The translations under genes were made by a program, and so were the position numbers. A stretch of 64,000 nucleotides of DNA from Lepraria neglecta (Eukaryota; Ascomycota; Lecanoromycetes; Lecanorales; Stereocaulaceae): assembly GCA_033220425.1 (NCBI GenBank), contig CM065647.1, positions 1,364,001-1,428,000 of the forward strand. The letters run 5' to 3'. Shown here in pieces: positions 4,155 to 6,477 of the stretch (within the stretch, counting starts at the first letter, position 1; each line of letters opens with the position of its first letter). The notes under the pieces are model-generated. The model saw only the letters and a list, made by a program, of their open reading frames with translations. It was not told the origin of the DNA and searched no databases.

Positions 4155-4925
4155 TCAAGACACAGGAGAGCGGTTTACTTTGACTTTGCTTTTGAGACTT
4201 TCATATATCTCGTCCAATGGCCTTTCACAGTCGACCTGACTATAATGAGTGATTGCCGCCCAGGAATTATGGCTGATATCTTACGTAGATAACATCGCCA
4301 AATGATTGGACGATATCCGGAATGTCCTTTAAATACGCAGCGTATCTTCTGCGAAAGACCTCCGTGTTGTCATCAATTCTCCCATAGCCCTATTCAAGAT
4401 GTGCATATGCATGACGTCCTCGGAACAGTGCAAATGGAGGACGGCCTTTGTCTTCCAACCCTACGACAGTCAGCAATATTGCTGGCATATGTACTTCGCA
4501 GAAGGTACGCTTTCCTTGCTTTCGAAGAATTGAGCCTGCTGTTTGCTCCTGGGGAAGCCGTCAATGAGGAAATCAGATCGCCCGTCCTTCAAGTGCTGGA
4601 CGAGATAACGCTGGAGGACATCGTGAACGTAGGTGTGAGGGACGAGAGAAGCGTGGCCCATGATAGCCTTGATGTCAAATTCTTGCCCATTCAGCGACTT
4701 TTCAGCTTCCTTCCGGAGAAGATCACCGACTGAGATGTGCACTAATTTCAGGTCTCCAGCTAGCCTCGTGCACTGAGTTCCTTTCCCGACTCCGGGCCCT
4801 CCTGTAAATTACAATCATTTGTCCTTGCTTGAGACGAGGAGTGCCTGGGTTCTAAATAACTCACCAATTACACAGACGATGTTTGCTTCCGTCGGATCAA
4901 CGGATCGTTCTGGAACTGTATTCAT
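4155..4925 (-). pseudogene. UMP/CMP-kinase-family nucleoside monophosphate kinase, one frameshift
   Basis: Four exons can be assembled: 4865-4925, 4509-4801, 4285-4460 and 4155-4235, with GT-AG introns of 63, 48 and 49 nt. The product (about 203 residues) has a Walker A P-loop GGPGVGKGTQ (residues 21-30, split by intron 1), then HISVGDLLRKE, FLIDGFPRS and VLHLHCSEDVM, and ends with RRYAAYLKDIPDIV and VIYVD. These are the NMP-binding and core motifs of the UMP-CMP kinase/adenylate kinase family. The enzyme phosphorylates UMP/CMP (dCMP) with ATP. The lid is very short: only GRIDDN follows the fourth strand. One base is missing at about 4377-4382, which shifts the frame inside exon 3. All other junctions are in phase, so this is either a young lesion or a sequence error. 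It is head to head with viperin. Confidence 0.82.
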
Positions 4926-5439
4926 CTTCGAAATTGGCCGACCTCGCGTTTGTGGGTAATCTCTTATGCTTGTACTTAGGTATAACCTTGCGAATGGAAT
5001 GAGGTTGTCATTTCTCGTGATCGTATATAGAACCGCTAACGGATGCTACGCTAGGGGTCACCTCAGCGCGCTATTCGTTTTCTGGAATGTACAATGTACA
5101 AGGCGACAAACCCCACCATGTTGCATTTGCCGGTGTACTGGACCAATGGAACTTGCTTTATCTATCAGAGACCAATGCAAAAGCCGGCCAGTGGAGCATT
5201 TGTGACTATTGGTTTCTCCTCACTTCGGAAGCAGAATCCATTTCTGTGGGTAATCTAGTGTACTTTATATTATTTCAAAGGAGCGTGTCATCAGGAATCG
5301 GAATAACCTTTCACGCCCATCCTAGAGCTACCTGATCTCTTGTCTTCTTCCAAAAACATCCGTGGGCCTAAGACGTGTTGAAAGTTTCTTTTATCCTTCT
5401 GTAATTTCAGTGCCTATTATTGAGAGCAATCTATCAAAC
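4926..5439. promoter_or_regulatory. Shared divergent promoter region, NMP kinase / viperin
   Basis: These 514 bp separate the start codons of the kinase (minus) and viperin (plus). No conserved ORF is present. A common bidirectional control region is inferred from the head-to-head layout. I cannot name a transcription-factor site. Confidence 0.45.
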
Positions 5440-6477
5440 ATGTTCGGCATACATCACTTGGATTACATTATACTCCTTGGACTAATAGGGCTGCTTTTCA
5501 TAGTCCACCATCTTACTCACTTCGCAACCATCCCAAGGAGAATCCCCCTTTCCGTGAATTATCACCTGACACGAGTATGTAACTACTCCTGTGGTATGAA
5601 ATTCTTGGATCGACCACCTATAATCTGAAAAGCTGTATCTGACTTTGCTGTAGGATTCTGCTTCCACACCGCCAAGACGTCCCATGTCGAATCTCTCTCC
5701 AATGCCAAAAAAGGTATGGCCCTTCTCAAAGCATGCGGTATGAAGAAGATCTTTGCAGGCGGCGAGCCCTTCATGAACGCCGAATTCCTCGGACAGCTCG
5801 CCAAATACTGCAAAGAAACTCTGAAAGTGGAGTCCGTGTCCGTTGTCACGAACGGTAGCAAAGTGACCTACAAATGGCTCGCCAAGTACGGCAAATACCT
5901 CGATATCATGGCTGTTTCTTGCGATTCCTTCGACGACACTACAAATGTCAAAATTGGTCGAGGTACCGGCAATCACGTGAAAACGTTCATGGACCTGTGT
6001 GAGATGTGCAAAGAGCATGGTGTCATGTTCAAGGTCAACACCGCCGTGAACCGGTACAATTTTCAAGAGGATATGAATGCTGCTATAGACAAGATCAAGC
6101 CTTTTCGCTGGAAGTGCTTCCAAGTACTCATCGCGCCAGAGGAAAATCGTTCAGAGCATACACTGCGGGATGCTAGGCGCTTCGTAATCAGTGACGAGGA
6201 ATGGCGTCTGTTTTGTGATAAACATAAACGCCAGGAATGCTTCGTCCCGGAAGTGATTGATGTCATGGCTAGCTCTTACTTGTTGCTTGACGAAAATTTG
6301 TGTTTTCTCAATAAGGGAGTGGCAAAGCCGACGAGGAGTATTTTGGATATTGGTATCGCAGAGGTGCTGAAGGATGTGTACTGGGATGAAGAGGGGTTTC
6401 AAAAGAGAGGTAGAGTGTACCAATGGTCCAAACCAGATACATCAGAACGTCTTACCCACCCTGAACATGAGTGGTAG
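5440..6477 (+). CDS. RSAD2-like: Viperin (radical SAM ddhCTP synthase)
   Basis: Viperin converts CTP to 3'-deoxy-3',4'-didehydro-CTP, a chain terminator for viral RNA polymerases. Exons are 5440-5593 and 5654-6477; the 60-nt GT-AG intron splits a glycine codon in the cluster motif. The product has 325 residues (human 361). Residues 9-22 form a hydrophobic N-terminal segment consistent with membrane/lipid-droplet attachment. The radical-SAM motif CNYSCGFC places the three 4Fe-4S cysteines at 47, 51 and 54, followed by FHTAKTSHVES as in animal viperins. GGEP (87-90) contacts SAM. SCDSF, VNTAVN and KCFQVL follow. The tail SILDIGI......F.KRG..Y.WSKPD, ending in a terminal Trp, is viperin-specific and excludes MoaA-type relatives. 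The start was chosen at 5440 because the TM-like segment begins there; a Met at 5362 is in frame. The gene is intact, without stops. Confidence 0.95.

Follow-up and report, generated by a model that had tools for sequence, protein, structure and literature searches.

A divergent viperin–kinase gene pair in Lepraria neglecta, possibly the decaying relic of an inherited antiviral module

The DNA analyzed here, referred to below as the window, is a stretch of 64,000 nucleotides from the genome of Lepraria neglecta (C2:1364001-1428000; 42.0 Mb in 11 contigs; family Stereocaulaceae). The species is called asexual, and a chromosomal assembly reported, in the title of Pfeffer et al. 2023, as cited in PMC11353741. 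Within the window, a viperin ORF on the forward strand (5440-6477) and a nucleotide kinase gene on the reverse strand (4925-4155) diverge from each other, with 514 bp between their start codons. This layout, proposed in a first-pass annotation of the sequence, was confirmed by our gene models. The features at the locus, and the second pair described below, are as follows:

5440..5593, + strand: viperin exon 1, with an N-terminal hydrophobic stretch and CNYSCG
5594..5653, + strand: viperin intron, 60 nt
5654..6477, + strand: viperin exon 2, with GFC, GGEP, the C-terminus, and the stop codon; one Asn is missing before FAGGEP
4926..5439, no strand: intergenic gap of 514 bp, a candidate promoter region, in which TATATA lies some 99 bases away from the start of the kinase
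4865..4925, - strand: kinase exon 1
4509..4801, - strand: kinase exon 2, with the P-loop, the NMP-binding part, and DGFPR
4285..4460, - strand: kinase exon 3, with the strand before the lid, the lid, and GRIDD; the reading frame is lost within the lid, near 4385-4383
4329..4331, - strand: premature stop codon, reached past the frame break
4390..4508, - strand: predicted alternative kinase intron, 119 nt, which keeps the frame open and removes the strand before the lid
4155..4235, - strand: kinase exon 4, with the VDCERPLDEIYE tail and the stop codon
L022 3637-5907 (C5, about 2.8896-2.8919 Mb), divergent: second viperin–kinase pair, both genes apparently degraded

The viperin is encoded by two exons and has 325 aa, and its spliced ORF carries both CNYSCGFC and GGEP and matches Radical_SAM (PF04055). 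It scored 222.5 bits against NF038283, above the cut-off of 180, and 359.3 against TIGR04278, under that model's cut-off of 450. A close solved relative is 6b4c (E 6.6e-105), from Trichoderma virens according to PMC8124187, from which the window viperin differs in having no Asn before FAGGEP. Two further genes were observed on the viperin side of the locus. A CYTH-domain ORF at 7057-7590 on the reverse strand, which we take to be thiamine-triphosphatase-like, is convergent to viperin and lies ~0.6 kb past its stop (PF01928, 31.4 bits against a cut-off of 23.2). The CYTH family search of the whole genome returned no matches, though this ORF exceeds the Pfam cut-off, and that search was therefore insensitive here. 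A dynamin-like GTPase gene (10994-13022, reverse strand; PF00350, E 1.6e-29; PF01031) lies ~4.5 kb beyond viperin.

The kinase gene has four exons and encodes an adenylate/UMP-kinase fold, with a P-loop and DGFPR (PF00406, 108.7 bits when read across the frame break, against a cut-off of 26.8). It had been taken for an intact gene, which our models contradict: the best introns, of 63, 48, and 49 nt, leave 611 nt of coding sequence, a length not divisible by 3, and translation halts at 4331-4329 after 161 aa. The lid in the window reads RA, two bases, and then GRIDD, whereas that of intact relatives P0001, P0005, P0006, and P0008 reads RA(Q/K/E)TSGRVDD (RAQTSGRVDD in Psora crenata P0001), giving a shortfall of ~7 nt that lies outside any single-base run. 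Several other kinase relatives have RAKTSGRVDD, and the lid is normal in most of the relatives read. By eye, the window kinase is altered at 2 of 38 columns that are invariant among 11 relatives, both of them shortly before the lid.

The window kinase is neither URA6 nor the sole such kinase of the genome. An intact URA6 is present on C7, and its two exons both match the annotated uridylate kinase P0051 at 100% identity. The tree of 44 kinases placed L. neglecta URA6 in a group of 24 rows (98/97), outside of which lay the window kinase, the second L. neglecta copy, and relatives from Lasallia, Wilcoxina, Trichoglossum, Geoglossum, and Aspergillus. The first-pass proposal was to fall if the kinase were the only, housekeeping UMP/CMP kinase of the genome, which it is not. 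The window kinase clustered with P0001, P0003, and P0019 (100/99), and the kinases outside URA6, viperin-linked ones included, formed no single supported group in the tree. Against the UMP-CMP model TIGR01359, it scored 127.3, below the cut-off of 207.6, compared with 247.9 for L. neglecta URA6; P0001, P0010, and P0034 were likewise under the cut-off, and all four scored similarly, below cut-off, against UMP-CMP and adenylate-kinase models. The best solved relative is the yeast uridylate kinase 1uky (E 4.6e-31), which is alike in its P-loop and DGFPR...Q. We also observed a divergent URA6-like kinase at L026 1091-1734 on the forward strand (C2, ~3.652 Mb), with 52% and 42% identity to L. neglecta URA6 over two stretches and a long branch in the tree.

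The viperin had been described as intact, and this is true of its open ORF, its CNYSCGFC, and its GGEP, but not of its conserved positions. We aligned it with the 87 relatives that reach 300 aa among the best 120 of 2440 matches, excluding the 33 shorter ones, and considered the 101 columns that were at least 95% conserved among the relatives. The window viperin deviates at 7 of the 101 columns. One deviation is the loss of the Asn that precedes FAGGEP in 87 of 87 relatives; the other six are substitutions, one of them common to Lepraria finkii. L. finkii itself has one substitution in these columns, and only one other sequence, with eight, exceeds the window. Between the window and L. finkii viperins, 6 of 26 differences (23%) fall in conserved columns, the highest share of 31 pairs with 82-95.5% identity; the next-highest pair has 3 of 36, and pairs without the window pooled give 2.6% (binomial 5e-5 for the excess, with pairs that are not independent). 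With each of six outgroups, 9-12 changes were specific to the window and 1-5 to L. finkii, and the end branches in the viperin tree measured 0.082 and 0.015, respectively. The changes in the window copy, most of them substitutions, point to relaxed constraint. Though its membership in the family stands, the function of this viperin is in doubt, and the pattern of change suggests that it is probably being lost.

These viperin data bear on a reading in which the kinase alone was lost and viperin continues to work as an antiviral enzyme, acting on a CTP/UTP pool fed by URA6. An open frame with both motifs, a score above the NF038283 cut-off, and the intact URA6 on C7 would all suit such an enzyme; the loss of an Asn kept in every aligned relative and the excess of changes in conserved columns would not, and we consider this reading unlikely.

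L. neglecta has a second viperin match on C5 (C5:2891025-2891897), which is paired head to head with another window-kind kinase, the start codons being 454 bp apart. The neighbor of the C5 pair is a putative YcsF-like ORF, identified by eye, in place of the CYTH ORF found beside the window pair, so that viperin and kinase sit together in two different settings. The C5 kinase has a lid of normal length, but it is interrupted by an in-frame TAA and its P-loop carries Cys in place of Gly; the C5 viperin is disrupted by one TGA and by three frame breaks, the breaks all lying in base runs and thus possibly sequencing errors. On this evidence, both genes of the C5 pair look broken. As both window-kind kinases found in L. 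neglecta are broken, viperin activity, if any remains, would have to rely on URA6. The two L. neglecta intergenic regions had no 9-mers in common and shared two 8-mers, against 6.8 expected, and TATATA is similarly spaced from the kinase start in both pairs (99 and 98 bases). A single promoter serving both viperin and kinase is possible, though putative.

Base-run breaks are an error type made by long reads, and the three in the C5 viperin raise the question of whether the fungus itself has both genes intact, as a working pair that is broken only in the assembly. The first part of the window kinase agrees with such an error, as its first 118 residues look constrained, with no excess of change (2-3 in the window against 1-3, with four outgroups). 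The frame break is therefore probably recent, if it is real, and may even be an assembly error. The lid shortfall, by comparison, lies outside base runs, and the viperin changes are chiefly substitutions. Widespread frame errors in the assembly were also not evident from conserved genes: stops were absent from all five HSP70 matches of 1.2 kb or more and from seven of nine Cpn60 matches of >700 bp. At least one stop was carried by 5 of 23 HSP70 matches and 4 of 22 Cpn60 matches overall, where short introns may have been read through. Taken together, we regard an assembly artifact as rather improbable.

The first-pass annotation had further noted a "very short lid," as expected of a kinase dedicated to viperin. 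One splice model would allow for a functional short-lid kinase of this sort, as an intron of 119 nt (4508-4390) keeps the frame open over 179 aa. This model loses ~25 residues, among them a core strand and a helix that precede the lid as well as some of the lid itself, and its ADK match stops at residue 115, the score falling from 108.7 to 84.2 bits. Among other frame-keeping introns, inspected by eye only, none retained the strand before the lid. The annotated kinase of Trichoglossum hirsutum, P0095, omits the same strand-to-lid segment, which could stem from a faulty gene model or from a genuine short form; its relative Geoglossum P0098 does have the segment, as do 10 further relatives in the alignment. 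Given the absent strand, the lower score, and the relatives that keep the segment, a specialized short-lid enzyme seems a poor prospect. With ~7 nt lost, normal lids in most relatives, and a weaker open model, the short lid is most likely the scar of a frame-breaking deletion rather than a specialization.

We then considered how far viperin and this kind of kinase are linked in other fungi, as read from locus numbers and equal contig sizes of proteins in search listings. Consecutive loci were found in L. finkii (viperin ABVK25_002429, kinase ABVK25_002430) and in Trichoglossum hirsutum (M1813_007244 and M1813_007245). Viperin and kinase were on contigs of equal size in Wilcoxina (332,409), Lasallia (1,158,130), and Usnea (1,016,308), and on two further shared contigs of 11,868 and 3,070 bases. 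By class, Lecanoromycetes and Geoglossomycetes thus show adjacency or small shared contigs, and Pezizomycetes a shared contig. Lasallia pustulata, also a lichen fungus, has viperins P0170 and P0177 on separate contigs (1,158,130 and 1,944,371), and among the matches listed only the contig of P0170 was shared with a window-kind kinase. Of the 189 listed kinases with a contig size, BLAST placed 34 closer to the window kind and the other 155 closer to URA6 references. A contig size was shared with one of the 120 listed viperins by 7 of the 34 and by none of the 155 (Fisher 3.5e-6), counts that cover the best 120 of 2440 viperin matches and the best 120 matches per kinase search, that use a reference set including some of the paired kinases, that draw many of the 155 from organisms (animals and yeasts included) without viperin among the matches listed, and that record for three of the seven, on contigs of 0.3-1.2 Mb, a common contig and not adjacency. 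A mirror tree of nine viperin–kinase pairs gave r 0.90, with 0 of 5000 permutations as high, which is consistent with joint inheritance, a result that species relatedness alone can also yield.

The suggestion that related fungi would share the adjacency was thus borne out, in two species with consecutive loci, in the contig counts, and in the second L. neglecta pair. That the two genes are chance neighbors without a functional tie, as might be argued from the few species that allow placement of both genes and from the large size of three of the shared contigs, is hardly credible given the recurrence of the pairing, with one layout at two L. neglecta loci, consecutive locus numbers in L. finkii and T. 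hirsutum, and the 7 of 34 against 0 of 155. The broader proposal of a functional pair in a fungus is upheld for the lineage, through linkage elsewhere and a kinase other than URA6, but not for the window locus itself, with its broken kinase and worn viperin.

We favor the reading, to which we give a probability of about 0.55, that the window locus is an inherited antiviral viperin–kinase pair that is now a decaying relic in asexual L. neglecta. The frame break, the normal lids of the relatives and of the C5 kinase, and the drop in ADK score support decay, and the worn viperin sites, the longer end branch, the broken C5 pair, the linkage elsewhere, and the description of the species as asexual were counted on the same side. 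We counted against it the constrained first 118 residues of the kinase, the absence of the segment from P0095 (the short form might be real), the cluster cysteines and open frame kept by viperin, and the base-run breaks in the C5 viperin. More tentatively, and at somewhat less than even odds, ascomycetes may have recruited a dedicated viperin partner of the adenylate/UMP-kinase fold once or more, independently of vertebrate CMPK2, with the pair inherited and duplicated as a unit and both L. neglecta copies now being lost.

In the course of events that this decaying-pair reading proposes, several ascomycetes would keep viperin and an adenylate/UMP-kinase-fold partner together as a divergent pair. 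The kinase of an intact pair would most likely supply the CTP/UTP pool by making nucleoside diphosphates (UDP/CDP), and viperin would turn CTP and/or UTP into its ddh form, halting viral RNA synthesis. In L. neglecta, ~7 nt would have been lost from the lid of the kinase, breaking its frame, while the neighboring viperin, still open, would have become altered at sites that relatives keep, with relaxed selection as the presumed cause; the second pair would have been degraded in both genes.

CMPK2 belongs to the thymidylate-kinase family, and linkage of viperin and kinase in eukaryotes more widely has reportedly been described by Shomar et al. in 2024. The pairing seen here would be convergent with that of RSAD2 and CMPK2, as the window kinase is of the adenylate-kinase fold (PF00406), and the vertebrate parallel is at best functional only. 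The window kinase is further set apart from CMPK2 by its broken frame. In mammals, as described in excerpts of PMC10150978, CMPK2 adjoins RSAD2 and is co-transcribed with it, so that viperin likewise lies directly beside a nucleotide kinase, one held to supply CTP for ddhCTP. Around 15% of bacterial viperin genes adjoin a CMPK2-like kinase gene (PMC11249213, in part); unlike prokaryotic neighbors of this type, the window pair is fungal nuclear, intron-bearing, and divergent, with a kinase from another fold family. CTP appears to be converted by the viperins that had been tested up to 2021, with UTP a putative substrate of a fungal viperin, and no kinase partner is mentioned for the viperins of Trichoderma virens and Thielavia terrestris in the excerpts of PMC8124187 that deal with them. 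Viperin–kinase linkage in itself is not new, being on record for mammals (PMC10150978) and bacteria (PMC11249213). In the literature searched, which mostly did not extend to subscription papers, the titles and abstract openings gave no instance of such linkage in fungi, and we found in print neither an adenylate-fold kinase beside ascomycete viperins, nor two unlinked pairs per genome, nor decay of the pair.

Collectively, a type of kinase that stays by viperin in several ascomycetes is a likely partner to test in fungi. The window also calls for caution, as an odd lid in raw sequence here most likely marks a deletion rather than a specialization. If decay is the true reading, the partner would be dispensable, as might the entire module, and if both modules are being lost, L. 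neglecta would serve as a natural experiment on when a fungus can forgo viperin immunity.
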